A stretch of DNA of 49,732 bases from Caulobacter sp. D5 (GCF_003185805.1 NZ_QHJY01000089.1:1-49732), one strand, 5' to 3'; shown: positions 17,862 through 33,429, counted from the stretch's first letter. The notes: a model not told the origin generated them from the letters alone. Translations and numbers: made by a program.

Positions 17862-17867
17862 ACGCGA

Positions 17868-20800
17868 TTACTCCTGGCGCTCGACGATCAGCCTGGCCGG
17901 CTCGATCAGGCCCGAGGGCGACAGCGGCGCCTGCGGCGGATAGGGATCGAAGGTGGCGAAGGTCTTGGGACCGGCGTAGCCGGGCTGCTTGTCGCCGATC
18001 AGGCGGTTGGGCCACAGGTTGACGACCTTGACCTCGAGCTTGTTGTCGCCGGCCTTCAGGGCGTCGGTGACGTCGACCTCGAACGGCGCCTTCCACAGCA
18101 CGCCCAGGTCCTTGCCGTTGACGCTGACGCTGGCCAGGTTCTTGACCGCGCCCAGGTCGAGCACGACGCGAGCCCCCTTCCCCGCCTTCGGGGCCTTGAA
18201 GGTGGTCGTGTAGGCGGCGGTTCCGGAGAAGTAGCGGACGGCGGGGTCGGCGCTGTCGGTCCAGGAGCCGGGCTTGACGTCCTTCAAGGTCGGGCCTTGC
18301 GGGAAGCTGAGCGTCCAGCCGCCGTCGATCACGGCGGCGACGGTGCGGACCTTGGCCGGAACGGCGCGTTCCGCCGGACCGGACTTGCGGAACACCACGA
18401 ACACCGCGTCGTGGGCGTTCAGCGCCAGCGGCACGTTGGTGCGGCCGTCGGCGGTCTTGTAGCTGGCCGGCGCGATCGAACCGGTGTCGGCCCGCCAGAT
18501 CTCGGCCTCGCGGCCGGAAGTGCGGAAGCTGACCGAAGCGGTCTTGGCCTCGCCCGGGTTGCTGACGAAGTAGAGGTCGCCGTCCGGCAACTGGCGGTGC
18601 ACGAAGCGCAGACCCGCGCCGCCGTCGTCGGCGTCCGGGCCGATCCCCGCCAGGGCCGCGCCCAGGTCGGCGCTGACCCCCGCGAACACCTGGTCGGCCA
18701 GGCGCTGGAACTCGGCCGGATCGTCCGACAGGCTGGGCGTGGCGTCGGGGCGGACGCCCACGATCGGCACGCCGGCCGCCTTCAGCGTCAGAAGCTTGCG
18801 CAGAACGGGAACGGTCATGCGGCGCACCGACGGATCGATGGCCAGCACGCGGTAGCGCATGCCGCTGGGCGTTGCGACCTGACCGTCCTTGGCGTCCAGC
18901 AGGTTCACCAGGGCGTCGCCGTTGACGAAGTCGTAGGCGTGGCCGACCGGGATCTTCGGCATGGCCTTGCCGTAGAGCTCGGTGATGTTGCCGTCCTCGC
19001 CGTAGAACCAGGCCACGTCGGCGACGAACCGGCCCTGCTGCAACAGCAGCGAGCTGCGCGACAGATAGTCGATCCATGGCCCTGCTTGCTCGGCCCAGGT
19101 CTCCTTGCGGGTGAACCACTGGCCGAAGATGGCCAGGGTCATGCCCGGCCCGGCCGTGTCGAGCGGCTGATGCACCGAGGTGTGAATGATGAAGCGGTTG
19201 AGGCCATTGGCCATCATCGCGTCGGCGGTCGGCTTCAGCTTGGCCGGGTCGTAGCCGAAGGGGCTGCTGGCGCTGGTGAACGACTCCGCCGCCACCAGGT
19301 TCTGGCCGTAGAGGTGGGCCACCGACGCCGATTCACGAATGTCGGCGTCGTAGCTGAAGGGGTCGTTGGTGACCGGCACCTCGGTCCAGGTCGCGCCCAT
19401 CGGCACGTCGGCGCTCTTCTTGACCTGCATGCCGTCGCCGACGAAGGCGCGGCCGGTCTCGTGGGACTCGCCGTAGCGCTTCATGCCGCGTGCATGCAGG
19501 GCGTCCGACAGCGCGCCGTAGTGCTCGTCGGCGATCAGGTCGCCGATGGTCTTGCGGAAGTCCCAGAGGAAGGCGTCGCTGGCCGCGGCGCTCTCGACCA
19601 CCCGGCCGCTCAGCACCGGCAGCCAGGGCCTGGCGTCATAGCCGCGCCGGGCCTGGAACTGGGCCAGCATCTTTTCGGTCCAGTTGGCCGAGCCGGCCTC
19701 CCAGCTGTCGGTGATCATCGCCTGGACGCCGCGCTTGCCCATCAGCTCGGGGCCGACGGTCTGCTGGTAGAGGTCCAGATAGGTGTCGGCATAGGCGGTC
19801 ACGTGCTCGCGGCTGAGCTTGTCGACCTCCAGGCCGGTGCCCTCGGCCGAGGCCGGGCTGTTCTGGCGCCCGGTCAGCGAATAGCCGTAGCGCAGCACCT
19901 CCCAGCGGCCGGCCGGCGGCGTCCAGTCCAGGGTCCCGTCGGGCTTGAGACGGTCGGTCAGGTCGACGACGTCGGCGCGGTGAACGATGGTGTCGGCCGA
20001 GGCCTGCGGCGTGGGATCCTCGTCCAGGCCGCCGGCCGACGACCAACCGGCCTTGTCCTCGAAGCGGTGCACCCGCGCCCCGGCCTCGAAGGCCAGCTCG
20101 GCGATCTGGTGGCTGGTCGGATCCTTCAGCCCAGCCATCGCCAGGGCCGGATTGGACGGCCGCGGCAAGAAGACGACCCGGAAGTAGCGCGCCGTCGTCG
20201 CCGGGAAGGCCACGGTCTGCTGCAACGCGCCGTGGACCGGCAGCTTGACGACTGGACGGAAGGTCTTGCCGTCGTCGCTGGCCTCGATGCGGCCCTCGGG
20301 CGCTGTGGCCCCGAACTCGCCGAAGCCGCCGGCGTGGGCGGCCACCAGTCGCAGGGCGCGCAGGGTCTGGGGCTTGGCGTATTCGACCTGGATCCAGGTT
20401 TCCTTGTCGGGCGCGAAGGGCAGCTCGACCTGGCGCACCAGGTCGCCGTCGGTCAGCAGGGCGACGTCGACCGGGTTGCTGGCGGTGATCTTGGCCGACG
20501 CGAGCGGGGCCTGCTCGGCGGCCGGCAGGCGGTAGGCGACCACGGCCGCGTCGCGATAATAGGTCGGCAGCTGGCCTTTGATCGCCGACATGGCCGAGCC
20601 GCCGCCCGGCACGCCCAGGAACGGTCCGGTGACCGACGGCGGCGCGGCCAGGGGCTTGTCGAGCTTGCGGCCGCCTTCGACGATCGTCTCGCTCCAGACC
20701 AGCTTCTTCATCGCCTGTTCGGGTTTGACCCAGGGACCGCCGGTCTCGCTCCAGCCGGGCGAGCCGGCGATGGCGAACTCGAAGCCGTCGGCGTCGGCCG

Positions 20801-21143
20801 TCTCGACCGCGTGCTTGAACGCCGCCCGCCACTCCGGCGTCATGAACACCAGGCGCTTGTCGACGACGTGCGGGGTGTCGAAGAAGCCGCCGTCGTTGAA
20901 GCCGGCGTCGAAGTTCTGCACCCCGGCCAGGCCGATGCGCTTCATCCAGGCCAGGTCCTTGTCGATGCCATCCTGGGTGACGTTGCCGCTCATCCAGTGC
21001 CACCAGACCCGCGGCCGGGCCGTGTTCGGCGGATCGACGAAGCTCGCGCCGAGGGCGTCGGCCTGCTGCCGGGCCAGGGCCGGCGATCCGGCGAGCATGG
21101 CGGCCAGGGCCGCTCCGGCGATCAGGCGTCGGGCGAGGGTCAT
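17868..21143 (-). CDS. GH106 alpha-L-rhamnosidase, secreted
   Basis: 1091 aa. A signal peptide (MTLARRLIAGAALAAMLAGS...ALA-RQ) is followed by the GH106 opening PRVWWHWMSGNVTQDGI and GLAGVQNFDAGF. A catalytic-barrel region includes MITDSWEAGSANWTEKM and KRYGESHETG, and a beta-sandwich near the C-terminus has KNLASVSVNGKDLGVLWKAPF and VVNLWPNRLIGD. This is the full length expected for the family. It should cleave terminal alpha-L-rhamnose from plant glycosides or rhamnogalacturonan in the periplasm or at the surface. Upstream are a 69-aa membrane peptide and GH1; RhaT is 6 bases downstream. GH1 plus GH106 is the pair needed to strip rutinose or neohesperidose from flavonoids. Confidence 0.88.
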   Translation of the reverse strand: MTLARRLIAGAALAAMLAGSPALARQQADALGASFVDPPNTARPRVWWHWMSGNVTQDGIDKDLAWMKRIGLAGVQNFDAGFNDGGFFDTPHVVDKRLVFMTPEWRAAFKHAVETADADGFEFAIAGSPGWSETGGPWVKPEQAMKKLVWSETIVEGGRKLDKPLAAPPSVTGPFLGVPGGGSAMSAIKGQLPTYYRDAAVVAYRLPAAEQAPLASAKITASNPVDVALLTDGDLVRQVELPFAPDKETWIQVEYAKPQTLRALRLVAAHAGGFGEFGATAPEGRIEASDDGKTFRPVVKLPVHGALQQTVAFPATTARYFRVVFLPRPSNPALAMAGLKDPTSHQIAELAFEAGARVHRFEDKAGWSSAGGLDEDPTPQASADTIVHRADVVDLTDRLKPDGTLDWTPPAGRWEVLRYGYSLTGRQNSPASAEGTGLEVDKLSREHVTAYADTYLDLYQQTVGPELMGKRGVQAMITDSWEAGSANWTEKMLAQFQARRGYDARPWLPVLSGRVVESAAASDAFLWDFRKTIGDLIADEHYGALSDALHARGMKRYGESHETGRAFVGDGMQVKKSADVPMGATWTEVPVTNDPFSYDADIRESASVAHLYGQNLVAAESFTSASSPFGYDPAKLKPTADAMMANGLNRFIIHTSVHQPLDTAGPGMTLAIFGQWFTRKETWAEQAGPWIDYLSRSSLLLQQGRFVADVAWFYGEDGNITELYGKAMPKIPVGHAYDFVNGDALVNLLDAKDGQVATPSGMRYRVLAIDPSVRRMTVPVLRKLLTLKAAGVPIVGVRPDATPSLSDDPAEFQRLADQVFAGVSADLGAALAGIGPDADDGGAGLRFVHRQLPDGDLYFVSNPGEAKTASVSFRTSGREAEIWRADTGSIAPASYKTADGRTNVPLALNAHDAVFVVFRKSGPAERAVPAKVRTVAAVIDGGWTLSFPQGPTLKDVKPGSWTDSADPAVRYFSGTAAYTTTFKAPKAGKGARVVLDLGAVKNLASVSVNGKDLGVLWKAPFEVDVTDALKAGDNKLEVKVVNLWPNRLIGDKQPGYAGPKTFATFDPYPPQAPLSPSGLIEPARLIVERQE

Positions 21144-21405: not shown

Positions 21406-21409
21406 GGCG

Positions 21410-22726
21410 TCAGATCCGGTTGGCGCGGGCGATCTGGCCCAGCAGCACGGCGCTGGGCTTGGGCGTGCGGGCCTGGGTGGCGCGGTCGACGGCGACGAGG
21501 CCGAACTTGGGTCCGTAGCCGAACACCCACTCGAAATTGTCCAGCAGCGACCAGTGGACGTAGCCCTTCACCGGGATGCCATCGTCCATCGCCGCCTTCA
21601 GGCCTTCCAGCGCGATCTTGATGTAGGCCACGCGACGCGTGTCGTCCTCGATCGCGACGCCGTTCTCGGTGACGTAGATCGGCTTGCCCGAGAGGGCGTG
21701 GGCGTAGCGCACGGTCTGACCCAGGGCCTGGGGCGAGAACTCCTCGCCGGTCTGGGTCAGCTCGACGCCCTGCGGCGGCTGCATCTGGCCCTTGGCGTCG
21801 ATCTGGGCGCGGCTGTAGGTCTGGACGCCGACGAAGTCGCCGGTCTGCTTGATGGCCTCCAGCCAGGGATCGTAGCACTGGGCCCGCTTCTCGTCGCGCC
21901 GGCTGTTCTCGCCCACGGCCTGATCGTCCAACATCGCCAGGGTGGCGCCGACCGGGAAGTCGCCGGGACCGGCCTTGATGGCGGCGTAGCCCTGCTTGTG
22001 GGCCTCGATCAGGTTGGGCAGCATCACGTCCTGGCGACCGAACTGGGCGCTGGAGAAAAGCGGCGTGCCGCAAGCCTTGGCCGCGTCGACCATCGCCTGC
22101 TTCATCTGGTCGAGGATGAACGGCGGCAGAATCCACTGCAGCAGCAGGCCGATATTGGGCTCGTTGAAGGTGGCGGCCCCACCGGCCAGGTCGCCCACGC
22201 CCTTGACCGCATAGGCGCAATAGCGCGCGAACAGGGCCGGACTTTCCGGGTTCTCCCAGCCGCCCTGGGCCGCGAACCAGCGCGGCACGACGAAGTGGTT
22301 GAAGGTGATCAGCGGCGTGACGCCGTGCTTGCGGCAGGTCAGGGCGACCCGGCGATAGTGCTCCAGCTCGGCGGCCGAGAACTGGCCCTTGGCTGGCTCG
22401 ATCCGCGCCCACTCCAGCGAGAAACGGTAGGTGTTCAAACCCAGCTTCGCCAGCAGGGCGATGTCGGCCTCGTAGCGGTGATAGTGGTCGCAGGCGTCGC
22501 CCGACGGCTCCATGAACGGGCTGGGCTTCAGCTGCTCCAACAGCCAGGTGTCGCTGTTGACGTTGTTGCCTTCCACCTGGTGGCCGGCGGTGGCCGCGCC
22601 CCAGAGGAAGCCCTTGGGGAAGTCGCCGCCGGCGGCCTTGGCCTGGGAGACGGCGGGACTGGCGGCGGCCGCGGCGCCGGCCGCCATCAGCAGCCGGCGG
22701 GTGAGCGGGAGGTCACGGAAGGTCAT
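21410..22726 (-). CDS. GH1 beta-glucosidase with Tat-type signal
   Basis: 438 aa. The N-terminus LTRRLLMAAGAAAAA is a twin-arginine-like signal, ending near SQAKAA. The barrel begins FPKGFLWGAATAGHQVEG; acid/base E189 is in TFNEPN, nucleophile E354 in YVTENG, with H144 in TFNHFVVPRW and the C-terminal WSLLDNFEWVFGY. The enzyme should hydrolyse beta-glucosides (or related aryl glycosides) outside the cytoplasm. NHFVVPRW in place of the common HWDLP shows an unusual subfamily. It follows the esterase by 43 bases and precedes the small membrane peptide and GH106. The context favours plant aryl glucosides such as flavonoid 7-O-glucosides, which is inference. Confidence 0.88.
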   Translation of the reverse strand: MTFRDLPLTRRLLMAAGAAAAASPAVSQAKAAGGDFPKGFLWGAATAGHQVEGNNVNSDTWLLEQLKPSPFMEPSGDACDHYHRYEADIALLAKLGLNTYRFSLEWARIEPAKGQFSAAELEHYRRVALTCRKHGVTPLITFNHFVVPRWFAAQGGWENPESPALFARYCAYAVKGVGDLAGGAATFNEPNIGLLLQWILPPFILDQMKQAMVDAAKACGTPLFSSAQFGRQDVMLPNLIEAHKQGYAAIKAGPGDFPVGATLAMLDDQAVGENSRRDEKRAQCYDPWLEAIKQTGDFVGVQTYSRAQIDAKGQMQPPQGVELTQTGEEFSPQALGQTVRYAHALSGKPIYVTENGVAIEDDTRRVAYIKIALEGLKAAMDDGIPVKGYVHWSLLDNFEWVFGYGPKFGLVAVDRATQARTPKPSAVLLGQIARANRI

Positions 22727-22769: not shown

Positions 22770-23708
22770 TCACTGGGCGGGCTTCAGCAGGCCGCGTGCG
22801 GCCATCCAGGCGTAGAACTGGTCGATCCAGAGATCGCTGGTCGTGCCCCGCTTGTGCAGGCCGAACCCGTGGTCGCCCTTCTCGTAGACGTGCATCTCGA
22901 CCTTGCCGCCGGCCTGCTTCCAGGCCTGGACGAGGCCGTAGTCGGTATTGCCGAACAGCGGATCGTCATTGGCGATGGCGGTGAACATCGGCGGCGGGTC
23001 GGCCGGCGGGCTCACCGTGTTCATCGGGCCGTAGATCGGGGCGATGAAGTCGGGCCGGGCGTCCGGCGCATTGCGCAGCGTCGCGCCCAGGGTGGTCATG
23101 GCCCCGGCGGAGAAGCCCATCAGCCCCACCCGCCTGGGATCCACGCCCCACTCGCCGGCCCGCGAGCGCACCAGGCGCAGGGCCTGCTGGGCGTCGTCCA
23201 GCGCCAGGGGCTGGCTGATCGGCGGGGCCTTGTCGGCCCCGGCCTTGGCCGCCGCGCCGAAGCGCGCGCCCAGCACCTGAAGCGTCTCCTGGTCGTTGTC
23301 CGGCGTCGGGTCCAGGCGGTACTTCAGGACGAAGGCGGCGATCCCGTGATCGGCCAGCCACTGGGCGACCTTCTCGCCTTCCCACTCCATCGACAGCAGC
23401 ATGTAGGCGCCGCCGGGGGCGACGATCACCGCCGCGCCCGTCGCCTTGCCCTTGGCCGGCAGATACGGCGTCAGGGTCGGCCTGGTGACGTTGCGCACGG
23501 CCACGCCGTCGATCAGGTAGTTCCAGTGCTCCACCTGGGTCGCGCCCTCCGAACCCGGCGCGACGCCGGGCCAGAGCGGGATCGCCCCGGCTTGGGCCGG
23601 CGCAGGGATCGTGCGGATCTCGACGCGCTGAGGAATGCCCTGGGCCAAGGCGCTCCCGGCGAACGCGGCGAGAGCCGCGCCCACCAGAAGGAAGAACCTC
23701 GCCCGCAT
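22770..23708 (-). CDS. secreted alpha/beta-hydrolase (esterase, BD-FAE-like)
   Basis: 312 aa. The signal peptide is MRARFFLLVGAALAAFAGSALA. IPLWPGVAPGS is typical of the lipase/acetylxylan-esterase group; the oxyanion turn is APGGAY (98-102), the nucleophile S200 in GFSAG, the acid in ANDDPLF and the His in KGDHGFG. It probably removes acetyl, malonyl, feruloyl or similar acyl groups from plant glycosides before the glycosidases act. Its start codon overlaps the TonB receptor stop by one base (TGATG), so it is the second gene of that operon. The ester substrate is not shown by the sequence. Confidence 0.83.
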   Translation of the reverse strand: MRARFFLLVGAALAAFAGSALAQGIPQRVEIRTIPAPAQAGAIPLWPGVAPGSEGATQVEHWNYLIDGVAVRNVTRPTLTPYLPAKGKATGAAVIVAPGGAYMLLSMEWEGEKVAQWLADHGIAAFVLKYRLDPTPDNDQETLQVLGARFGAAAKAGADKAPPISQPLALDDAQQALRLVRSRAGEWGVDPRRVGLMGFSAGAMTTLGATLRNAPDARPDFIAPIYGPMNTVSPPADPPPMFTAIANDDPLFGNTDYGLVQAWKQAGGKVEMHVYEKGDHGFGLHKRGTTSDLWIDQFYAWMAARGLLKPAQ

Positions 23709-26023
23709 CAGAAGTGGCCTTCGAGGGTCACGCCGACGGTGCGCTCGGCCTCGCGGGTGCGCCAGTTGATGTAGCCGTCATAGCCGCTCTGGAACGGCAG
23801 GGTGATGATCGCCGCGTTGAAGTCCTGCTTGAGCAGGTTGCGGGCGAACACCCCGACGCGCCACTGGCGGTCTTCCGGACCGATCCCGGCCGAGACGTTG
23901 AGCACGCCGTAGCCCTTCTGGATGGTGTTGGGATCGCCGACGCTGTTCTGGGTCTTGGTGCGGTAGGAGTAGTTGGCCGCGGCGTCGAACGTCAGGGCGT
24001 CGGTGATCGCGTGCTCATAGTTGGCGCCGAGCACGACGGTGACCTTCGGCGCGCCGGCCAGGGTCTGGCCCTTGGCCTGATAGACGTAGGTGCCGTTGTT
24101 CAGGGTGCAGCCGACGTAGCCGGCCAGGATCAGGTTGTTCGGGCAGCTGGTGACGTAGTCGGTGTACTTGGCGTCGGAATAGGTGGTCGAGGCGTTCAGC
24201 TTCAGCGAGCTGTTGACCCGCAGGTTGGCCTCGATCTCGAAGCCCTTGGCCTCCAGCCCGCCGGCGTTCTCGGTGACGAACTCGTTGTTGCGCAGCACCG
24301 CGGTCTGCAGGTCGGTGTACTTGTCGTAGAAGATGTTGCCATTCAGCGTCAGGCGACGATCCAGCAGGGTCGTCTTGGCGCCGATGGTGACGTCGTCGAC
24401 GGTCTGCGGCGCGACATTGGTCTTGGTGCCGCTGAGCGCCGAGAAGGTCACCGTCGGGCCGAGATAGCCGCGGGCCACGGTGCCGAAGATCAGCACGTTG
24501 TCGGACGGCTTCCAGTCCAGGCCGATGCGGCCCGAGGGGCTCGACTTCGAGGTCTCGCCGGTCTGCAGGGCGCGCGGCGTATAGGGCACGGTGGTCCCGC
24601 CGGCCGTCAGGAAGGCCGGCAGCGACGGATCAAGCTCGGACCAGTTGGAGGCCTCGACTTTGTCCTTGGTCATCCGCGCCCCGCCCAGCAGGCTGAGGGT
24701 GTCGCTCAGCTTGTAGCGGCCGTCGATGAACACCGCGGCGCTGTCGGTCGTGGTCTTGCCGTGGTTCAGGCCGGCCGTGATCGAGACCACCGGGGCGGTG
24801 CTGTAGGGCGTGGCCGGGCGCAGTTGGGCGCTCTCGCCTGTGTTTTCGGTCTCCAGGCGCGAGACGAACAGGCCGGCGACATAGCTGAGGCGGCCGCTGC
24901 TGGGCGAGGTCAGGCGGAATTCCTGCGAGGCCTGGGTCTTGACCTGCCCGCGGGCCTGGGCGGTGAACTTGGACTGCGGCGAGGCGTCGATCGAGTAGTT
25001 GTACGGATCGTCCTTGTAGCCGCGATAGGCGCTCAGCGAGGTCAGGGTGTACTCGCCCAGCTCCCAGTTCAGCTCCAGCGAGGCGCCGTAGTTGGTCGTG
25101 CCCAGGCTGCCGCCGCCGTCCTCGATGGACTTGTCGTTCGAGGCGCTGGCCGTGACGCCCAGGGCCGAGAGGCTGGTGAAGGGCGCCAGGAAGTTGGCGT
25201 CGGTGGTCGGGGCCTTGTTCAGGGTCCAGAGCTGGCCGGGACCCTTCTGGCGCTGGCGCGAATAGTCGCCGATCAGGTAGGCGCTAAAGGTGTCGGTCGG
25301 CTTCCAGTAGAGCTTGCCGCGCGCGCCGTTGTTGTGGATGCCGCCCCAGTCCTCGTTGCGCACGACGTTGTGGACGTAGCCGTCATAGGCCTTGTCGTAG
25401 AGGAAGATGCCGACGGCCAGGGTGTCCGACAGCGGGGCGGTGACGCCGCCGTGCACGTCGCGCTCGTTCAGCGAGCCGTAGGAGGCGAAGAAGTCGCCCG
25501 TCGCCGTGGTCAGGCTAGGCTTGCGGGTGGTGATCGAGATGACGCCGCTGGAGGCGTTCTTGCCGAACTGGGTGCCTTGCGGGCCTTTCAGCACTTCGAC
25601 GCGCTCCAGGTCGCCCAGGCTGTCGACCGGCGAGCCGAACGGAACCACGACGCCGTCGACCACCAGGCCGACCGGCGATTCCGAGCTCGAGGTGAAGCCG
25701 CCGGCCGAGCCGACGCCGCGCAGGCGGAAGCCGGAGTCGTTGGGCGTGGTGCCGAACTGCACGCCGGCGACCGAATACTGCAGGTCGGTCACGGCCTTGG
25801 CGCCGGTGGCGGCCAGCTGGTCGCCGCTGACGGCCGAGACGGCCAGCGGCACGTCCTGCAGGCGCTCGGAGCGGCGGGTGGCGGTGACGACCACTTCTTC
25901 GATGGCGATCGGCGACTCGGTGGTCGCGCCGTTGGCGGGCGAGGCGTCCTGCGCGTGGGCCGCGCCGCCGATGGCGACGGTGAGGCTGGTGGCGGCCAGC
26001 AGGCTGAGCTTGAATGCGTTCAT
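23708..26023 (-). CDS. TonB-dependent outer-membrane receptor (glycoside locus)
   Basis: 771 aa. Signal peptide to about residue 24 (AHAQDAS), a TonB-box-like IEEVVVTATRR near 42-52, a plug (VPLAVSAVSGDQL, RLRGVGSAGGF, VLKGPQGTQFGKNASSGVISI) and a beta-barrel ending in EAERTVGVTLEGHF with the terminal Phe needed for outer-membrane assembly. It is the first gene of the minus-strand operon with esterase, GH1, peptide, GH106, RhaT and IclR, so its likely cargo is a plant glycoside such as a flavonoid rutinoside. Two T-N11-A boxes lie in the gap between it and the divergent LysR gene, which suggests LysR control. Confidence 0.9.
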   Translation of the reverse strand: MNAFKLSLLAATSLTVAIGGAAHAQDASPANGATTESPIAIEEVVVTATRRSERLQDVPLAVSAVSGDQLAATGAKAVTDLQYSVAGVQFGTTPNDSGFRLRGVGSAGGFTSSSESPVGLVVDGVVVPFGSPVDSLGDLERVEVLKGPQGTQFGKNASSGVISITTRKPSLTTATGDFFASYGSLNERDVHGGVTAPLSDTLAVGIFLYDKAYDGYVHNVVRNEDWGGIHNNGARGKLYWKPTDTFSAYLIGDYSRQRQKGPGQLWTLNKAPTTDANFLAPFTSLSALGVTASASNDKSIEDGGGSLGTTNYGASLELNWELGEYTLTSLSAYRGYKDDPYNYSIDASPQSKFTAQARGQVKTQASQEFRLTSPSSGRLSYVAGLFVSRLETENTGESAQLRPATPYSTAPVVSITAGLNHGKTTTDSAAVFIDGRYKLSDTLSLLGGARMTKDKVEASNWSELDPSLPAFLTAGGTTVPYTPRALQTGETSKSSPSGRIGLDWKPSDNVLIFGTVARGYLGPTVTFSALSGTKTNVAPQTVDDVTIGAKTTLLDRRLTLNGNIFYDKYTDLQTAVLRNNEFVTENAGGLEAKGFEIEANLRVNSSLKLNASTTYSDAKYTDYVTSCPNNLILAGYVGCTLNNGTYVYQAKGQTLAGAPKVTVVLGANYEHAITDALTFDAAANYSYRTKTQNSVGDPNTIQKGYGVLNVSAGIGPEDRQWRVGVFARNLLKQDFNAAIITLPFQSGYDGYINWRTREAERTVGVTLEGHF

Positions 26024-26151: not shown

Positions 26152-26164
26152 TTCAATCGTTGAA
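26152..26164. promoter_or_regulatory. LysR-type T-N11-A box, TonB receptor side (site 1)
   Basis: TTCAATCGTTGAA has 4-base inverted arms (TTCA/TGAA) and the T-N11-A spacing bound by LysR-type regulators. The 17-base context CCAATTCAATCG is repeated with one change (TTCAATCGCTGAA) at 27447-27459 in front of the aromatic operon. It lies in the gap between the receptor gene and the divergent lysR gene. Confidence 0.65.
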
Positions 26165-26197
26165 CAGCAACTATCACTCAAGATTATGCGGGACTGC

Positions 26198-26214: not shown

Positions 26215-26307
26215 TGATAAGGTGCTTGCCCCAATGGCGCCGCTCGGTCTAAGCCGCTTGAAATGTCAGGGTCCACAGAAGGCCCGATGTCTCTGGAGGA
26301 TCCTGCC

Positions 26308-27213
26308 GTGCGCTTTCACAACCTCGACCTGAACTTGCTGGTCGTGCTGGATTCCCTGCTTCAGGAGCGCAGCGTCAGCCAGACGGCCCAAGCCCTGCGC
26401 CTCACCCAGCCGGCGATCAGCAACGCCCTCTCGCGCCTGCGCCAGCACTTCGAGGACGACCTTCTGGTCCAGGTCGGCCGCAAGATGGTCCCGACCCCGT
26501 TCGCCGAAAGCCTGGCCGCACCGGTGCGCGAGGCCCTGGACGGCCTGCGCCGCATCGTCGTCAACCGCTCGGAATTCGATCCCGCCGCCGCCGACCGCAC
26601 CTTCACCTTCGTCTGCTCGGACTACGTCTTCAACGTTCTGATGACCGGAGCCATCCGCAAGCTGGTGACCGTCGCGCCGCGGCTGAAGATCGTGGTGCTG
26701 CTGACCTCCGACCAAAGCGCGGCCCTGCTGGGCGAGGGCAAGATCGACTTCATGATCTCGCCCGAGCGCAAGTGCGATCCGGGCCATCCGAAGAGCCCGC
26801 TGTTCAGCGACCGCTTCGCCTGCATCGCCTGGCGCGACAACCCGCTGGTCGGCGCCAGCCTCACCCTCGAGAAGTACCTCGAACTGGAGCACGTCTCGGT
26901 GACGCTGGGCCCGCACAACCCGCCGCACATCGAGCAGGAATCGCTGGACGCCCAAGGCGTGGAGCGCAACATCGTCGTCCACGCGCCCACCTTCAACTGC
27001 GTGGCCGAGATCGTGGTGGGCACCAACATGATCGCCACCGTCCATGCCCGCAACGCGGCTATCCTGGCCAAGCGCCTGCCGCTGAAGGTGCTGGCGCCGC
27101 CGGTGGAGATCGCGACGTTCACCGAGTTCCTGCAGTGGCACAAGAACAAGGAAACCGACGCGGGCACGCTGTGGCTGCGCGACTTCCTGATCGAGCACGC
27201 CCAGAGCCTTTAG
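26308..27213 (+). CDS. NodD-like LysR-family regulator
   Basis: 301 aa from a GTG at 26308, which has GGAGGA 7 bases upstream; this gives MRFHNLDLNLLVVLDSLL, the start seen in NodD relatives (MRF..LDLNLLVALDAL). In-frame ATGs at 26263 and 26287 are weaker. The winged helix spans about 20-45 (VSQTAQALRLTQPAISNALSRLR), then RKMVPTPFAESLAAPVREAL, closely NodD-like, and the effector domain ends with TFTEFLQWHKNKETDAGTLWLRDFL. NodD and the H. seropedicae flavonoid regulator FdeR belong to this clade, so a flavonoid or other phenolic effector is reasonable. It is divergent from the TonB receptor operon. Confidence 0.88.
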   Translation: MRFHNLDLNLLVVLDSLLQERSVSQTAQALRLTQPAISNALSRLRQHFEDDLLVQVGRKMVPTPFAESLAAPVREALDGLRRIVVNRSEFDPAAADRTFTFVCSDYVFNVLMTGAIRKLVTVAPRLKIVVLLTSDQSAALLGEGKIDFMISPERKCDPGHPKSPLFSDRFACIAWRDNPLVGASLTLEKYLELEHVSVTLGPHNPPHIEQESLDAQGVERNIVVHAPTFNCVAEIVVGTNMIATVHARNAAILAKRLPLKVLAPPVEIATFTEFLQWHKNKETDAGTLWLRDFLIEHAQSL

Positions 27214-27373: not shown

Positions 27374-27446
27374 GTCCTGTTTCCTCCCAAGACCGCTCTG
27401 ACGGCGGCATGGGAGGAGCTTCCTCGCGATACTGACTATCCGCCAA

Positions 27447-27459
27447 TTCAATCGCTGAA
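27447..27459. promoter_or_regulatory. LysR-type T-N11-A box, aromatic operon side (site 3)
   Basis: TTCAATCGCTGAA differs from site 1 (26152-26164) by one base, and the preceding CCAA is also shared. It lies between the 45-aa peptide gene and the amidohydrolase, about 170 bases before the latter. A half-site in reverse (CGATTGAA) follows at 27522-27529. Confidence 0.65.
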
Positions 27460-27626
27460 TGGCGACCATAAGCCGCATGAAGGTGTCGGCCCCATCATCG
27501 CCGGTGATGCGAGACATTCCCCGATTGAATTTTTTCCGGCCGGTCCCCTCCCCGTAAATGGTCGCAAGGGGCGCGGCGCATCATCGACCGCCGCCCGCGA
27601 ACAAAAATCGGCAGGGTGGAATCCAC

Positions 27627-28871
27627 GTGGCGCGTACGCTCATCACCAATATCCAGGTCTTCGACGGCACGGGCCGCGCGCCCTTCGCCGGCGAGGTCCT
27701 GATCGAGGACAACCGCATCGCCCGCGTGGCGGCGACGGCTTCCGAAGGCCGGATCGAAGCGGCCGACGCAACGGTCATCGACGGCGCCGGCGCGACCCTG
27801 ATGCCGGGTCTGATCGAAGCCCACGCCCACCTGTCCTGGCCCTCGTCGATCGAGCGCTTCATTCCCGAATTCATCCTGCCGCCGGAAGAACAACTGCTGG
27901 CCACGGTGCGCAACGCCCGCGTCCTGCTGGAAAGCGGCTTCACCAGCGCCTATTCGGCCGGCGCCCTGGGCGAGCGCATCGAGGTGGTGGTCCGCAACGA
28001 GATCGACGGCGGCTGGACCCCGGGTCCGCGCCTGCGCGCCTCGACCATTGAGCGCAGCCCCGAGGGCGAGAACACCGGCGAGATCGACCACGGGCGCGGT
28101 CCCGAGGCGATGAAGGCCTTCGTCAAGCACTGCAAGACCATCGGCATCGACCAGGTCAAGCTGGTGATCAGCGGCGAAGACGCCCTGCTGCCCGGCTCCT
28201 CGCAGCACATCCTCTACACCGAGGAAGAGGTCCAGGCGGCCGGCGAGCAGGCCCGCGAAAGCGACATCTGGCTGTCGGCCCACACCCAGGCCGGCGAGGC
28301 GATCAAGATGGCCCTGCGGGCCGGCGTACGGGTGCTCTACCACTGCACCTACGCCGACGAGGAAGCGCTCGACCTGCTGGAAGCGCACAAGGACGAGATC
28401 TTCGTCGCCCCGGCCATCGGCGTCATCGTCGCCACCTTGGAGGCCAAGCCGCCGCCGCACATCGACATGACCTCGATGAAGGAAGCCGCCGTTCCGGTCG
28501 TCGAAAAGTGCAAGGTGCTGATCCCCGAGCTGAAGCGCCGGGGCGTGCGCGTGCTGCCCGGCGGCGACTACGGCTTTCCGTTCAATCCCAACGGCGCCAA
28601 CGCCCGCGACCTGCAGCACTTCGTCGACCTGTTCGGCTACACGCCCACCGAGGCCCTGGTGGCCGCCACCAAGCTGGGCGGCGAGCTGATGGGCCGCGCC
28701 GACGAACTGGGCCTGGTCGAGCCGGGCTACCTGGCCGACCTGCTGCTGGTCGACGGCGACCCGACCCAGGACGTCTCGATCCTGCAGCGTCGCGACCGCC
28801 TGCTGATGATCATGAAGGACGGCAAGATGCACAAGGCGCCGGCCCAGCCGGTTGCGCGGGCCGCCGCCTGA
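27627..28871 (+). CDS. metal-dependent amidohydrolase
   Basis: 414 aa from a GTG at 27627 after GGTGGA; the in-frame extension to 27558 is unlikely. The binuclear metal-site residues are all present: H66-x-H68 (IEAHAHL), K178 for the carboxylated Lys (QVKLVISGED), H219 (SAHTQAG), H239 (LYHCTYAD) and D314 (PGGDYGF). This is the imidazolonepropionase/prolidase-like branch of the superfamily. It is first gene of the aromatic operon, overlapping the next gene by TGATG. It may open a lactone or other ring or amide in the catabolic route. The exact bond cleaved is unknown. Confidence 0.82.
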   Translation: MARTLITNIQVFDGTGRAPFAGEVLIEDNRIARVAATASEGRIEAADATVIDGAGATLMPGLIEAHAHLSWPSSIERFIPEFILPPEEQLLATVRNARVLLESGFTSAYSAGALGERIEVVVRNEIDGGWTPGPRLRASTIERSPEGENTGEIDHGRGPEAMKAFVKHCKTIGIDQVKLVISGEDALLPGSSQHILYTEEEVQAAGEQARESDIWLSAHTQAGEAIKMALRAGVRVLYHCTYADEEALDLLEAHKDEIFVAPAIGVIVATLEAKPPPHIDMTSMKEAAVPVVEKCKVLIPELKRRGVRVLPGGDYGFPFNPNGANARDLQHFVDLFGYTPTEALVAATKLGGELMGRADELGLVEPGYLADLLLVDGDPTQDVSILQRRDRLLMIMKDGKMHKAPAQPVARAAA

Positions 28872-29683
28872 TGAGCGTCCGTTCCGATATCGTCTTCGGC
28901 GTCGCCGGCTCGGCCGAGCTGAAGGGCGACCTCTATCTGCCCGACGCGCCGGGCCCGCATCCGGTGCTGGTCGCGGCCCCCGGCGGCGCCTGGCTGCGCA
29001 ACGACAAGGCCCAACTGGCCCGCTGGGGCAAGTATCTCGCCGGCCAGGGCTACGCCGTCTTCGCCATCGACTATCGCCGCTCGACCAACGGCAAGTCGTT
29101 CCCCGGCAACGTCCAGGACGTGGTCGAGGCCGCGCGCTTTCTGAAACGCGAGGCCGCCGGCCTCGGTGTTGACCCCGACCGCATCGGCCTGCTCGGCGCC
29201 TCGGCCGGCGCCCACCTGACGGCGCTGGCGGCCCTGGCCCAGGGCCAGCCCTGGCTCTATGGCGAAACCGTCCAGTTCAAGACCCTGGTCGCCGTCTACG
29301 GCGTCTACGACCTCTTCGCGCACTGGCAGGCGGATCTGGCCAAGAACGCCGCCCCGGGAACCGATCCGACCTTCCGGATGCTGGGCGCGGATCCGTACGA
29401 GGATCCGCAGCTCTATGTCGCCGCCTCGCCGCTGCGCCACGTGCGCTACGATCGCAACGCCCTGAAGGCGCTGGTGATCTGGGGCGAGCGCGACCACGAC
29501 ATCGATCCCGGCCAGTCGGAAGCCTTCGCCCGCGCCCTGCGCCAGGCCCGCTTCTTCGTGCGCACCCTGCCCGTGCCCGACGCCGGCCATTTCTGGTTCA
29601 GCGAGGAAGAGGTCGACACGCCCCACACCGCCGCCGGCCGGGTCGCTCCCGCCATCGTCCGTTTCCTCGACAAGCACCTGTGA
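28871..29683 (+). CDS. alpha/beta-hydrolase, cytoplasmic esterase or C-C hydrolase type
   Basis: 270 aa without a signal peptide. The oxyanion motif AAPGGAW is at 35-41, nucleophile S111 in GASAGAH, acid in WGERDHDI and His in DAGHFWF. The BD-FAE/Aes-like layout suggests a carboxylesterase of a small phenolic ester, in the cytosol, unlike the secreted esterase at 22770. Its ATG overlaps the amidohydrolase stop by one base and its own stop overlaps the monooxygenase start the same way, so translation is coupled. It may act on the ring-cleavage product or on a lactone. The substrate is not shown. Confidence 0.8.
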   Translation: MSVRSDIVFGVAGSAELKGDLYLPDAPGPHPVLVAAPGGAWLRNDKAQLARWGKYLAGQGYAVFAIDYRRSTNGKSFPGNVQDVVEAARFLKREAAGLGVDPDRIGLLGASAGAHLTALAALAQGQPWLYGETVQFKTLVAVYGVYDLFAHWQADLAKNAAPGTDPTFRMLGADPYEDPQLYVAASPLRHVRYDRNALKALVIWGERDHDIDPGQSEAFARALRQARFFVRTLPVPDAGHFWFSEEEVDTPHTAAGRVAPAIVRFLDKHL

Positions 29684-31227
29684 TGATTTACGACGTCGCC
29701 ATCGTCGGCTGCGGCCCCGTCGGGGCCCTGGCCGCCAACCTCCTGGGCCAGGCGGGCCTCAGCGTTCTGGTGCTCGAGCAGGAGCGCGATCCTCATCCCC
29801 TGCCCCGCGCCGTCCACCTCGACCACGAGATGATGCGCATCTTCCAGGGCGCGGGTCTCGTCGAGCGCCTGCATCCCTTGATGCGCGAGACGCAGGGCCA
29901 CCTGCACATCGGCGCCGACGGCGGGGTGATCCGCTACATGGGCACCGCCGGCCAGGCCAAGCGCTTTGGCTGGGCCAACGACTACTTCTTTTACCAACCC
30001 GAGCTTGAGGCGCAGCTTCGCGACGCCCTGGCCCGTTTCCCGGCCGTCACCCTGCGCCTGGGCGCCAGGCTGGAAAGCCTGACCCAGGACGCCGACGGCG
30101 CCGACCTCGCGCTGGCCGGCGGCGAGACCCTGCGCGCCCACTGGGTGATCGCCTGCGACGGCGCCCGCAGCGCCGTGCGCAAGAGCCTGGGCGTCAGGCT
30201 CGACGACCTCGATTTCGAGGAGCCCTGGCTCGTCGTCGACGCAGAGGTCGACGGCCCGATCGTCTTCCCCGACATTCCCGGCCTGCCGGCGGGCGCTGAT
30301 CTGCAGCAGCTGTCGGTGATGCTGTGCGACCCGCGCCGTCCGGCCACCATCGTGCCGGGCCGCGGCAATCACCGCCGCTGGGAGTTCATGCTGCTGCCCG
30401 GCGAGGACGACCAGGCGATGATGGCGACGCAGCAGGTCGAGGCCCTGATCGCGCCCTGGGTCGAAGGCTCGACCTATCGCCTGGTGCGCGCCGCCACCTA
30501 TCGCTTCCATGGCCTGGTCGCCGAGCGCTGGCGTGTGGGCCGGGTGTTCCTGGCCGGCGACGCCGCCCATCAGACCCCGCCGTTCTTCGGCCAGGGCATG
30601 TGTCATGGCCTGCGCGACGTCTCGAACCTGGCCTGGAAGCTGCCGCTGGTGATTTCCGGCCTGGCCGAGGACGCTCTGCTCGACACCTACCAGCCCGAGC
30701 GCGACCCGCACGTACGCGGCGTCATCGGCGCGGCCGTGAACGCGGGCCGCTACATCTGCCAGCTCGACCCCGCCAAGGCCGCCGAGCGCGACGCCCACAT
30801 GCGCGAGGTCATGGCCGCCGCCAAGCCCGGAACCACGGCCGCCGACCTGATCCCCGCCTACCAGGCCGGGGTCGCCCGCCCCGGATCCGGCGAGCGCTTC
30901 ATCCACCCCCGCGTCGGCGGCGTCCTGCTCGACGATGTGCTGGGCGAGGGCTTCGCGGTCATCGCCCGCGAACCGGTGGCCGCATCGCCCGCCTTCGCCC
31001 GCATCGGCGGTTCGCTCCACGTGATCGGCGAGGGCCTCGACGACGCCGACGGCGCCTTGACCGCCTGGCTCGACGCCAAGGGCGCGGCCGCCGTGCTGCT
31101 GCGCCCCGACCGCTACGTCTACGGCGTCGCCGAGATCGCCGACGCCCTGCCCGCCCTGATCGACCAGCTTTGCGCCGACCTCTCTCTCAAGGTCGAAGCG
31201 CCCAAGGAGACCGCATGTCCCGCCTGA
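29683..31227 (+). CDS. FAD-dependent aromatic hydroxylase (MhpA-like)
   Basis: 514 aa. The FAD dinucleotide motif GCGPVGA is at 9-15, the mid-domain ACDGARSAVRK follows near 160, and the ribityl-binding GDAAHQTPPFFGQGM near 285-299. The C-terminal thioredoxin-like tail completes the class A flavoprotein layout. The group is closest to 3-(3-hydroxyphenyl)propionate hydroxylase and includes FdeE, the naringenin 8-hydroxylase of H. seropedicae. It should ortho-hydroxylate a phenolic ring with NAD(P)H and O2 to create the catechol for the VOC dioxygenase encoded two genes downstream. The ATG at 29683 couples with the previous stop; a GTG at 29680 is in frame. Confidence 0.87.
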   Translation: MIYDVAIVGCGPVGALAANLLGQAGLSVLVLEQERDPHPLPRAVHLDHEMMRIFQGAGLVERLHPLMRETQGHLHIGADGGVIRYMGTAGQAKRFGWANDYFFYQPELEAQLRDALARFPAVTLRLGARLESLTQDADGADLALAGGETLRAHWVIACDGARSAVRKSLGVRLDDLDFEEPWLVVDAEVDGPIVFPDIPGLPAGADLQQLSVMLCDPRRPATIVPGRGNHRRWEFMLLPGEDDQAMMATQQVEALIAPWVEGSTYRLVRAATYRFHGLVAERWRVGRVFLAGDAAHQTPPFFGQGMCHGLRDVSNLAWKLPLVISGLAEDALLDTYQPERDPHVRGVIGAAVNAGRYICQLDPAKAAERDAHMREVMAAAKPGTTAADLIPAYQAGVARPGSGERFIHPRVGGVLLDDVLGEGFAVIAREPVAASPAFARIGGSLHVIGEGLDDADGALTAWLDAKGAAAVLLRPDRYVYGVAEIADALPALIDQLCADLSLKVEAPKETACPA

Positions 31228-31667
31228 CCCTGGAGGCCGCCTCCATCATCGTCGACGCGGCCCTCGCCCAAGCCCGTCGCGACGGCTACCAGCCGCTGGC
31301 CGTGGCCGTGCTCGACGCCGGCGCGCACCTGGTGGCCCTCAAGCGCGAGGACGACGCCAGCCTGATGCGGCCGCAGATCGCCGTCGCCAAGGCCACCGGC
31401 GCTCTGGGCATGGGCTACGGCAGCCGTGAGCTGGCCAAGCGCGCCAACGCCGCCCCGGTGTTCTACTCGGCCCTCTTCGCCATCAGCGGCGGGGCCATGG
31501 CCCCCTCGCCCGGCGGCGTGCTGATCCGTGACGAAGGCGGCCGGATCATCGGCGCGGTGGGCGTCAGCGGCGACACCGGCGACGCCGACGAGGCCTGCGC
31601 CATCGCCGGCGTGATCGCCGCCAGCCTCACCCCCGATCCCGGCGGCGCGCCCGCGCCGCAAGCCTAG
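31215..31667 (+). CDS. GlcG/HbpS-family (DUF336) heme-binding-type protein
   Basis: 150 aa. The pattern SRLTLEAASIIVDAALAQARRDGYQPLAVAVLDAGAHLVALKR, the middle ALGMGYGSRELAKRA and the C-terminal GGVLIRDEGGRIIGAVGVSGDTGDADEACA match GlcG/HbpS. These are small alpha/beta proteins; some bind heme or cobalamin, others have no known role but often sit in aromatic or glycolate operons. The start is an ATG after AAGGAGA, overlapping the hydroxylase gene by 13 bases. A GlcG-like gene also recurs in flavonoid-type loci as I recall them. Function in this pathway unknown. Confidence 0.83.
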   Translation: MSRLTLEAASIIVDAALAQARRDGYQPLAVAVLDAGAHLVALKREDDASLMRPQIAVAKATGALGMGYGSRELAKRANAAPVFYSALFAISGGAMAPSPGGVLIRDEGGRIIGAVGVSGDTGDADEACAIAGVIAASLTPDPGGAPAPQA

Positions 31668-31677
31668 AGTGTCCCCC

Positions 31678-32553
31678 ATGCGCCTTCGCAGCATCGAACT
31701 GAACCTGCCCGACACCGCCGCGGCCGTCGATTTCCTGACCGGGACCTGGGGCCTGGCCGACGCCGGGACCGCAGGCGAGACCCGCTATCTGCGCGGTTCG
31801 GGGCCGTTCCCCTATCTCGTGGCCATGACCGAGACGGCCGGCCCGTCGGTGCGCTGCACCACCTTTGTCGGCGAGGAGGCGGAGGTCGAGGCGATCGCCG
31901 CCAAGGCCCGCGCCGCCGGCGCCCCGGTGGTCGAGACCATGTCCGAGGATCTCGGCGGCGGCCGGGGCGTCCTGGTCCAGCTGCCCGAGGGCGAGGTGTT
32001 CCGCTTCCTGCACGGCGCGGCCCTGGCAGAGCCGATCGAGGGCCGCGACCTGCCGGTCAAGCTGACCCACGTGGTCATGAACGCCGCCAACGCCGAGGCC
32101 ACGGCCGACTTCGCCGAGGCCGCCCTGGGCTTCAAGGTCTCCGACCGCACCAAGGGCATGGTGTTCGTGCGCTGCAACGCCTCGCACCACTCCACCGCCT
32201 TCGCCCGCGCCGGCTTCACCTCGCTCAACCACATCGCCTTCGAGATGGCCGACCTGGATGCGGTGATGCGCGGCGTCGGCCGCCTGCGCGACACCGGCGC
32301 GGTCCCGGCCTGGGGGCCCGGCCGCCACGGCCCGGGCGACAACGTCTTCGCCTATTTCATCGCCCCGTTCGGCGCGGTCGTGGAGTTCTCGACCGCCGTC
32401 GAGATCATCCCCGACGACTACAAGGTCGGCGCGCCCGAGGACTGGACCTGGCCCGAGGGCCGCATCGACCAGTGGGGCCTGTCGGGCAAGGACTTCGCCG
32501 GCCTCAACACCGCCGAGCGCACCTTCGGCCACGCGCCGCTGCCGGTCGCCTAG
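31678..32553 (+). CDS. VOC-superfamily extradiol ring-cleavage dioxygenase
   Basis: 291 aa from the ATG at 31678 (an in-frame GTG at 31669 is less likely). Two VOC modules are visible. The C-terminal one keeps the iron triad H131 (KLTHVVMN), H185 (LNHIAFEM) and E236 (AVVEFST), with the supporting NASHHSTAF near 168-176 and a Tyr-containing loop DDYKV. This is the class of catechol 2,3-dioxygenases (type I), which cleave an ortho-diphenol next to the hydroxyls. It follows the MhpA-like hydroxylase and GlcG and precedes an FAH-type hydrolase, an order that reads as hydroxylation, cleavage, hydrolysis. The substrate is inferred to be a hydroxylated flavonoid A-ring. Confidence 0.84.
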   Translation: MRLRSIELNLPDTAAAVDFLTGTWGLADAGTAGETRYLRGSGPFPYLVAMTETAGPSVRCTTFVGEEAEVEAIAAKARAAGAPVVETMSEDLGGGRGVLVQLPEGEVFRFLHGAALAEPIEGRDLPVKLTHVVMNAANAEATADFAEAALGFKVSDRTKGMVFVRCNASHHSTAFARAGFTSLNHIAFEMADLDAVMRGVGRLRDTGAVPAWGPGRHGPGDNVFAYFIAPFGAVVEFSTAVEIIPDDYKVGAPEDWTWPEGRIDQWGLSGKDFAGLNTAERTFGHAPLPVA

Positions 32554-32586
32554 ACGCAACGCACCTCAAGAATCGAGACCAAGCTT

Positions 32587-33429
32587 ATGAAACTGATCAG
32601 CTTCCTGCGTGACGGCGTCGCCTCCTACGGCGCGATCCAGGGCGACCGCGTCGCCGACTTCGGCGCCATCGCCGGACCGGACGAGCACGACCTCGTCGCC
32701 GCCCTGCGCCTGGACGCCATCCCGGCCCTGGCCGCCGAGGCGGCCTTCGACGTGCCGGTCTCCGAGATCCAGCTGCTGCCGGTCGTCACCACCCCGGGCA
32801 AGATCTTCTGTGTCGGCCACAACTACGAGACCCATCGCCAGGAGACCGGCCGGGCCAAGGTCGGCCACCCGTCGATCTTCACCCGCTTCGCCGACACCCT
32901 GACCCCGCACGGCGGTCCGATCGTGCGGCCCAAGAGCTCGACCAGCCTCGACTACGAGGGCGAACTGGCCATCGTCATCGGCAAGGGCGGTCGCCACATC
33001 AGCGAGGCCGACGCCATGAGCCACGTGGCCGGTTTCGCCTGCGCCAACGACGCCTCGGTGCGCGACTGGCAATGGCACACCCAGCAGTTCACGCCCGGGA
33101 AGAACTTCCCCGGCACCGGGGGCCTTGGCCCCTGGCTGGTCACGCCCGACGAGATCGACGACCTGAACGCCGTCACCGTCACCACCCGCCTGAACGGCCA
33201 GCAGGTGCAGCACGCCAGCCTCGCCGACCTGATCTTCCCGCTGCCGACCATCATCGCCTATCTGTCGGGCTTCACCCCGCTGTCGCCGGGCGACCTGATC
33301 CTGACCGGCACGCCGGGCGGCGTCGGCGCCAAGCGCGAACCGCCGCTCTGGATGAAGGCCGGCGACGTCGTCGAGGTCGAGATCACGGGCGTCGGCCTGC
33401 TGTCGAACACGGTCGTGGACGAAGCCTGA
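32587..33429 (+). CDS. fumarylacetoacetate hydrolase (FAH)-family enzyme
   Basis: 280 aa. The metal site is E124, E126 and D155 (DYEGELAIVIG...CANDASVRDWQ) with TPGKIFCVGHNY upstream and a C-terminal ILTGTPGGVGA loop. The family includes 2-hydroxymuconate decarboxylases, 2-oxo-hydratases and C-C hydrolases that cut the dienoic product of ring cleavage. It is last in the aromatic operon, with a 33-base gap carrying a GAGACC-type site. The order after the extradiol dioxygenase makes hydrolysis of the ring-opened product likely. Hydratase or decarboxylase activity is an alternative the sequence alone cannot exclude. Confidence 0.87.
   Translation: MKLISFLRDGVASYGAIQGDRVADFGAIAGPDEHDLVAALRLDAIPALAAEAAFDVPVSEIQLLPVVTTPGKIFCVGHNYETHRQETGRAKVGHPSIFTRFADTLTPHGGPIVRPKSSTSLDYEGELAIVIGKGGRHISEADAMSHVAGFACANDASVRDWQWHTQQFTPGKNFPGTGGLGPWLVTPDEIDDLNAVTVTTRLNGQQVQHASLADLIFPLPTIIAYLSGFTPLSPGDLILTGTPGGVGAKREPPLWMKAGDVVEVEITGVGLLSNTVVDEA

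Follow-up and report, generated by a model that had tools for sequence, protein, structure and literature searches.

A candidate polyphenol-glycoside utilisation locus with an apparently non-fde ring-cleavage module in Caulobacter sp. D5

Plant flavonoids largely occur as glycosides. The original fde work in Herbaspirillum seropedicae SmR1 reportedly describes a NodD-like regulator together with a FAD hydroxylase and an extradiol dioxygenase. Work on the fde genes and on the ifc genes of Variovorax starts, in the excerpts consulted, from aglycones (PMC8552027, PMC11069340), and in the literature searched, mostly titles and abstracts, we found no account of a locus in which uptake, deglycosylation and ring cleavage are joined. 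Here, we analysed a stretch of 49,732 nucleotides (nt) from Caulobacter sp. D5 (NZ_QHJY01000089.1, positions 1-49732; hereafter the window), which has a G+C content of 62–74% and is contig C10 within a 587-contig draft genome of 5.29 Mb. At 16092-33429 it holds genes for a TonB-dependent receptor, secreted-looking glycosidases and an aromatic ring-cleavage set, which on balance we read as serving the utilisation of polyphenol glycosides, governed by a NodD-like LysR-type regulator, with a flavonoid rutinoside or neohesperidoside as the most likely substrate. Such uptake, deglycosylation and ring-cleavage genes are physically linked in several lineages, and this linkage is more general than the initial annotation of the window knew.

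The locus consists of two gene rows on opposite strands that meet at the LysR gene (26263..27213, plus strand). In order of transcription, the minus row holds the TonB-dependent receptor (TonB1, 23708..26023), an alpha/beta-hydrolase esterase (Est1, 22770..23708), a GH1 beta-glucosidase (21410..22726), a GH106 alpha-L-rhamnosidase (17868..21143), a RhaT L-rhamnose/proton symporter (16806..17861) and an IclR-type regulator (16092..16796). In the plus row, LysR is followed, after 344 nt, by an amidohydrolase (AmH, 27558..28871), a BD-FAE-type alpha/beta hydrolase (ABH2, 28868..29683), and the four genes that we call the ring-cleavage block, namely a FAD monooxygenase (FMO, 29680..31227), an HbpS/GlcG-like protein (HbpS, 31224..31667), a VOC type I extradiol dioxygenase (VOC, listed at 31669..32553) and a FAH-family hydrolase (FAH, 32587..33429). 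From AmH on, neighbouring genes of the plus operon overlap by 4 nt or lie no more than 33 nt apart, and the intergenic gaps within both rows run from -4 to +43 nt, with the exception of 266 nt between GH106 and GH1. All genes named in the initial annotation were found where it had placed them and scored above the Pfam cut-offs; its list had omitted AmH, ABH2 and the IclR gene.

The linkage recurs on plasmids. When 72,556 plasmid records were searched by tblastn, VOC matched 237 of them, seven at 60–80% identity and two at 59.9%, and all nine belong to Sphingobium or Novosphingobium. The ring-cleavage block lies with GH1 and GH106 within one 37-kb stretch in PP1Y, TomTYG64, TomTYG65, SA1 and V4, and in RAC03 GH106, two hydrolases and GH1 are found across the record's origin from the ring-cleavage block; GH106 and GH1 are thus carried beside the block by six of the nine records with a VOC of at least 59.9%. 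GH106 matches occur in 46 of the 72,556 records, and the naive chance of six in nine is 5e-18, a value that overstates the case, given loci of common ancestry and plasmids of large size, and that indicates direction only. HbpS stands between FMO and VOC in all nine sphingomonad loci (in THN1 the AmH, FMO and FAH matches are each split in two pieces), and was not found in that position in the Massilia, Croceibacterium, Alloyangia, Falsirhodobacter and Bosea loci. Relatives of AmH (54–67%) lie upstream of FMO in other loci, relatives of Est1 (48–57%) lie close to GH1/GH106 in PP1Y, TomTYG64, TomTYG65, V4, Croceibacterium and RAC03, with none found at the loci of SA1 or of genomes G816 and G811, and in SA1 and PP1Y relatives of RhaT (65–67%) are separated from the ring-cleavage block by 7–12 kb. 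The Croceibacterium locus has the same parts in rearranged order, with a less similar VOC. A separate observation there is a gene annotated as quercetin 2,3-dioxygenase family that adjoins the VOC gene (10906-11919 of locus L038).

The receptor can be regarded as an independent sign of linkage, because FMO is present in all five plasmid records with a TonB1 match of 49.3–57.1%; the next of the best 25 out of 335 matching records stands at 31.6%. The TonB genes of the SA1, V4 and RAC03 loci are distant only (26–27%), and in Novosphingobium ES2-1 a TonB1 relative shares the plasmid with the ring-cleavage block at a distance of about 70 kb. This ES2-1 relative (locus L174, 50%) stands beside a GH27 gene, 46% identical to the GH27-type alpha-galactosidase with an NPCBM domain that lies at 10958-13923 (minus strand) of the window and overlaps a second RhaT-family gene. 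Since the ES2-1 receptor gene adjoins GH27, the GH27/RhaT-family pair of the window may serve the same glycoside use.

Genome assemblies extend the picture. A 240-genome sample of the class gave one more close VOC, in G679, and in the family of G679 VOC was matched at 1e-80 or better in 5 of 82 genomes, at six places. G816 and contig C58 of G811 together hold AmH, ABH2, FMO, HbpS, VOC, FAH, GH1, GH106, LysR and TonB1, the VOC of G811-C58 having one in-frame TGA; LysR relatives reach 50–52% in these G816 and G811 loci, and ABH2 relatives reach 54–56% in G816, G811 and G813, the contig of the last being too short to judge linkage. G679, G814 and contig C20 of G811 have FMO-HbpS-VOC-FAH together with a distant TonB gene (31%). 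A scan of genome contigs, in which the best 80 of 533 relatives were kept (mostly Burkholderiales, 52 of the 80 with nearly full flanks), showed loci with a more distant VOC, and within 10 kb of it GH106 was found in 8, GH1 in 11 and a window-type amidohydrolase in 18 of the 80; the cases with GH106 or GH1 are Massilia, Telluria, Duganella or Pseudoduganella.

A palindromic box is shared by the two operons. A 27-nt repeat, 81% identical between its copies at 26148 and 27443, precedes TonB1 and AmH, respectively, and contains a 15-nt palindrome core, ATTCA-N5-TGAAT. The box occurs as CAATTCAATCGTTGAAC in the TonB1/LysR intergenic region (26149..26165, plus strand), as CAATTCAATCGCTGAAT upstream of the amidohydrolase operon (27444..27460, plus strand), and as a third, weaker copy, AAATTCAATCGGGGAAT, also before AmH (27516..27532, minus strand). 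Allowing at most one mismatch, the core is found at three places in the 5.29-Mb draft genome, all in this locus, where a base-composition model expects 0.23, the pattern having itself been drawn from two of the three sites; a reversed control pattern gave no place in the host genome. The shared box is the best evidence that both operons would form one regulon. Its predicted regulator matches a LysR family in Pfam, and among the best 40 of 1172 plasmid records the top matches, from B. cenocepacia (41%) and Cupriavidus (40%), are unannotated there, while the best annotated matches are NodD2 and NodD1 (38% over 96–98%), which bears out the earlier description of the protein as NodD-like. It is also 42% identical to the LysR of an fde-like cluster in Azospirillum B510. 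A candidate of the form ATC-N9-GAT, which we take to be the Nod-box consensus, was dropped, with 3 occurrences in the window vs 6.9 expected. The palindrome fits the T-N11-A rule that an excerpt of PMC10799723 gives for FdeR boxes. As a side observation, the sole exact match of a looser form of the palindrome among 189 loci lies in Robbsia andropogonis (15549-15563 of L063, plus strand).

The case for a flavonoid comes largely through GH106. The window enzyme matches Pfam PF17132 at 1008 bits and PDB 6q2f, which we take to be RHA-P, at 7e-262, and the residues aligned to positions 503, 506 and 644 of 6q2f, presumably the catalytic D503, E506 and E644 of RHA-P, are kept in 15 of 15 GH106 sequences. 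On the PP1Y plasmid, one GH106 place was found, and its product aligns with 6q2f over 1131 residues at 2590 bits, the displayed portion of the alignment being free of differences. The PP1Y enzyme is reported, in an excerpt of PMC10653915, to act on flavonoid glycosides, and a flavonoid rhamnosidase therefore lies inside an orthologous locus. In the literature searched, we found no account of the PP1Y locus as a whole, its GH106 being known to us through that second-hand mention.

The neighbours of GH106 fit a role in glycoside use. GH1 (Pfam PF00232) has the NEP acid/base and TENG nucleophile motifs and a Tat-like RR N-terminus, the RR motif being seen in five of six homologues (the sixth sequence was in the wrong frame), and scores 250.4 bits against an equivalog BGL model, short of the cut-off of 478.5. 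Est1 matches Abhydrolase_3 and BD-FAE, TonB1 likewise has its Pfam match, and GH106, Est1 and GH1 are judged to be exported, read by eye from their N-termini without a predictor (signal-peptide-like in GH106 and Est1). Rhamnose use in the host is indicated by RhaT, which in addition to its Pfam match exceeds the equivalog cut-off of NF010024 (528.8 bits vs 468), and by a genuine LRA6-type hydrolase on host contig C93 (520.3 bits, NF053535). The candidate role of FAH as the LRA6 of the rhamnose pathway was rejected at 167.7 bits vs the NF053535 cut-off of 500. The IclR gene, above cut-off for IclR_C and HTH_IclR, stands at the end of the minus row and its membership is uncertain; no relative was listed in the operon loci compared, and a single 42% match occurs in a Caulobacter rhizosphaerae locus (L175).

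A FAD monooxygenase, an extradiol dioxygenase and a FAH-type C-C hydrolase together form a route for 1,3-dihydroxy rings, with a diketo acid as cleavage product, whereas MhpC-like hydrolases are the commoner choice in meta cleavage of the catechol type. The A-ring of flavonoids is 1,3-dihydroxy, as are stilbene and phloroglucinol rings. FMO (515 residues, Pfam FAD_binding_3) belongs to an MhpA-like subfamily (NF004829, 505.3 bits vs a cut-off of 390), and HbpS (PF03928), AmH (Amidohydro_1) and ABH2 (BD-FAE) have their expected Pfam matches. The H-H-E metal triad of VOC (Glyoxalase) is invariant in nine of nine aligned VOCs; its residues are H131, H185 and E236, as first annotated, when counted from the probable ATG start at 31678, and three higher from the listed GTG. 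FAH (FAA_hydrolase) is proposed to be an acylpyruvate-type C-C hydrolase, and a role in ring cleavage is favoured because FAH is also present in loci without these glycosidases.

Because this enzyme set fits the 1,3-dihydroxy rings of flavonoids and of other phenolics alike, we consider a flavonoid substrate moderately probable, and its strongest competitor, that the locus serves other rhamnosyl-glucosyl phenolics (acteoside-type phenylethanoid, stilbene or coumarin glycosides) while FMO and VOC break down some simpler phenol or phenylpropanoid, unlikely but deserving of serious weight. Two esterase-like genes, one with BD-FAE (feruloyl/acetyl esterase-like) as its best family, speak for it, FMO passes the MhpA-type subfamily cut-off and is not fde-like, and many Burkholderiales have related modules that lack these glycosidases. 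However, the GH106 of the orthologous PP1Y locus is the enzyme reported on flavonoid glycosides, the regulator is NodD-like, FMO, at 32% identity to E. coli MhpA, falls outside the MhpA branch, and no operon gene is annotated as MhpB or MhpC.

Rather less probable is the proposal of the initial annotation that FMO is a FdeE-kind flavonoid 8-hydroxylase and VOC a FdeC. The NodD-like LysR gene and the company of a FAD hydroxylase, a VOC protein and a FAH protein speak in its favour, as do two motifs quoted for FdeE, GxGxxG (at residue 10 of FMO) and GDAxHxxxPxxxxG (at 293), which are common to the enzyme class. As the best stand-in for fde, we used the Azospirillum B510 cluster, in which a NodD-like LysR gene is divergent from VOC, Rieske, a 376-aa FAD enzyme, SMP-30, a cyclase (which we take to be the FdeG counterpart) and FAH, because it has the gene order C, D, E plus the cyclase; the label fde-like throughout rests on this gene order and on published statements, the B510 proteins serving as proxies for FdeE and FdeC. 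Window FMO is 26% identical to the B510 enzyme. In a tree of 35 chosen rows, the four fde-like FMOs cluster together (support 100/100, with a long-branch warning), window FMO falls in a clade of 17 rows (98/99) that mixes glycoside-type and glycosidase-free loci, and E. coli MhpA stands elsewhere; within the 17-row clade the glycoside label changes 4 times against a shuffled mean of 7.5, a value as low in 4 of 500 shuffles. As a proxy query, the B510 FdeC-like VOC finds a VOC on host contig C165 at 9e-45, whereas its match to the window VOC covers 126 residues at only 2e-11. FdeE is reported in complex with a Rieske carrier, FdeD (PMC8552027, in excerpt), yet a Pfam scan of the window genes at 16092-33429 recovered no Rieske domain. 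Judged through these proxies, an identity with FdeE and FdeC is not supported, although 8-hydroxylation reached by convergence is conceivable. In the tree, the hydroxylase belongs neither to the fde-like branch nor to that of MhpA, having a clade of its own, a third outcome of the tree test proposed in the initial annotation; the window ring-cleavage module is apparently a second, non-fde module in this host. On contig C165 (L189, 942-10711) we observed FAH, FdeE-like FMO, VOC, MFS, SDR, TonB receptor and FrsA-like hydrolase genes.

Massilia putida and N. aromaticivorans each have a window-type and an fde-like module within about 15 kb, a hint of one wider pathway but weak evidence, because fde-like FMOs are widespread (664 plasmid records). 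No fde or ifc cluster was recognised in the family of G061 (343 genomes, limits 1e-40 and 1e-120, 4–6 candidates scored per genome) or in the genus of G062, Variovorax (101 genomes, limits 1e-35 and 1e-100), searches in which 34 neighbourhoods were examined, not all of them annotated gene by gene; no Herbaspirillum is named among the best 80 of 533 relatives from the genome scan.

Catabolism of a steroidal saponin or glycoalkaloid, with deglycosylation by GH106 and GH1 and the steroid itself as the target of the ring genes, is very improbable. A Sphingobium GH106 hydrolyses steroidal saponins, according to an excerpt of PMC10653915, and TomTYG64 has a 3-oxosteroid 1-dehydrogenase gene beside the operon. 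Yet while the same paper has all of its own tomatine-degrading isolates sharing the saponin genes, tomato isolates make up just two (TomTYG64 and TomTYG65) of the seven plasmid records with a VOC at 60–80%, and nine other tomato isolates have GH106 among the matches listed (plasmid records, not chromosomes); moreover, the FAD dehydrogenase of the window (38940-40616) fits PRK12834 and not KstD, with no match in related loci (1e-20, 30% identity). That the carbohydrate and aromatic operons are unrelated and became neighbours by chance is least credible of all, since although the blocks are divergent and separately movable, and the ring-cleavage block occurs without these glycosidases in G009 and others, the draft genome has the shared 15-nt box at no other place and the linkage is repeated in several genera.

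A number of observations weigh against the reading that we prefer. The palindrome is not kept at the G816, G811 and G009 loci, where the best matches have 4–6 mismatches. In a GH106 tree of 15 chosen rows, the window enzyme lies outside the PP1Y (RHA-P) clade, pairing with GH106 of Caulobacter rhizosphaerae, around which 33 kb hold no ring-cleavage block, and standing near those of G816 and G811; operon membership on this tree shows no more clustering than shuffled labels do (196 of 500 as low), so GH106 would have been exchanged between loci. The saponin activity reported for GH106 of tomato-root Sphingobium (PMC10653915, in excerpt) means that GH106 alone is no proof of a flavonoid. Among the six plasmid records with RhaT above 60%, all six have GH106 and three (SA1, RAC03, PP1Y) have the operon, and the distribution of RhaT follows GH106 and not the ring-cleavage block. 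The window GH106 and GH1 were unmatched in the 34–37-kb stretches of N. aromaticivorans, ES2-1 and THN1 and in the 29–38 kb of each of G679, G811-C20 and G814. The best 80 of 533 loci have FMO in 73 and FAH in 62, in many Burkholderiales including Limnohabitans, mostly without these glycosidases. With regard to fde, the B510 FMO is 48% identical to the FMO on contig C165, beside which lies a FdeC-like VOC (32–35%).

The nearest relative of the ring-cleavage block adds to these points, as it lies in another genome of the host's genus, G009 (FMO 83%, the rest 94–95%), where the window GH106 and GH1 were unmatched across 53 kb around the block. Among 36 other genomes of the genus searched, G009 is the one with a close VOC (93%), the others reaching at most 44%, and its block adjoins a distant TonB gene (31%). 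Nucleotide similarity between the window and G009 spans 29689-33422, beginning at FMO and ending after FAH, with a single dip at 30851-31150; a breakpoint was sought within the shared block, and as similarity is continuous but for this dip, exchange is claimed for the whole block only. LysR, AmH, ABH2, TonB1 and GH1 of the window, on the other hand, resemble glycoside-type loci, and the locus has a modular look, as if its ring cassette and GH106 had been exchanged. On the G009 contig (C25; L130/L131), the block was also seen within about 30 kb of a fragment, recognised by eye, of a VirD4-like conjugation gene, hinting at mobility.

For a flavonoid glycoside as substrate, the reading we prefer, the genes suggest the following sequence. 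TonB1 would import a rhamnosylated plant phenolic glycoside, perhaps acylated, and in the periplasm Est1 would remove acyl groups, GH106 rhamnose and GH1 glucose, RhaT taking up the freed rhamnose. In the cytoplasm, FMO would hydroxylate a resorcinol-type (1,3-dihydroxy) ring next to the phenol, VOC would open the hydroxylated ring in extradiol fashion, and FAH would cleave the resulting diketo acid; AmH and ABH2 may act on the product by opening a lactone or ester, with HbpS as a putative accessory. LysR would activate both operons through the shared palindrome, and the separate fde-like module on C165 may handle another flavonoid type or another stage. Of the model of uptake, deglycosylation and ring opening first drawn for this locus, the linkage stands and is joined by the shared box, the NodD-like LysR and the flavonoid-active GH106 of PP1Y; the FdeE/FdeC identity fails, as far as proxies can tell. 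More tentatively, and with slightly less than even confidence, we propose that the window exemplifies a recurrent type of locus, so far without a name, that unites in one regulon a receptor, hydrolases for acyl, rhamnosyl and glucosyl groups, and a non-fde cassette, assembled more than once with exchange of GH106 and of the ring cassette, in sphingomonads, the host's genus, a second alphaproteobacterial family, and Massilia and its kin, and that with FMO and VOC bacteria have, alongside FdeE and FdeC, a second way of opening flavonoid rings that arose independently.

If true, the coupling of receptor, deglycosylation and ring opening under a regulator of flavonoid type would allow users of rhamnosylated phenolics to be predicted from genomes. 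The PP1Y locus would give a biological setting to a structurally solved rhamnosidase, the window locus offers an uncharacterised pair of hydroxylase and dioxygenase, and the separate fde-like pair in the host makes a division of labour directly testable.

Several further features of the window were noted. Two small, secreted-looking proteins, alike by eye and with no Pfam match, are encoded at 34332-34868 and 34944-35444 (minus strand), adjoining a large TonB receptor gene (35652-38606). At 38940-49360 lies a set of beta-oxidation type, with the FAD dehydrogenase (PRK12834), an SBF transporter, FadD, thiolase, MaoC, FabG-like and FadE; these genes, at 38.9–49.4 kb, were considered as a B-ring or steroid pathway and set aside, having no close counterparts in related loci. 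What looks like a biosynthetic cluster of modest size fills the region 77-10829, with two FabH-like synthases, an SDR, a hexapeptide transferase, a Rieske oxygenase, an aminotransferase and two GT41-like genes.

Among known systems, orcinol and resorcinol pathways resemble the locus in their order of steps, which employ a FAD monooxygenase, an extradiol dioxygenase and an acylpyruvate hydrolase. As for 3-(3-hydroxyphenyl)propionate hydroxylases of MhpA type, window FMO passes their subfamily model and fails the equivalogs, scoring below the four PRK06183 cut-offs shown. With fde of H. seropedicae SmR1 the locus shares the NodD-like LysR, the FAD hydroxylase and the extradiol dioxygenase, the likeness in FAH being known from the fde-like B510 cluster; it differs in the Rieske partner, FdeD, with which FdeE is reported to work and, judged through fde-like proxies, in the FMO clade, and the excerpts consulted on the fde operon mention no glycosidase. 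The ifc system of Variovorax likewise brings a FAD monooxygenase and a glyoxalase-fold dioxygenase to the flavonoid A-ring, but has two cupins, IfcD1 and IfcD2 (no cupin domain was found at E 0.001 among 13 scanned window genes at 16092-33429), and its IfcA uses isoflavone aglycones, a comparison drawn from the description in an excerpt of PMC11069340. Another close counterpart is the PP1Y megaplasmid locus, which like the window holds AmH-FMO-HbpS-VOC-FAH-TonB1 together with an esterase, GH1, GH106 and RhaT within about 24 kb, and unlike it has the matched genes on one strand, except RhaT, and a GH106 of the other branch.

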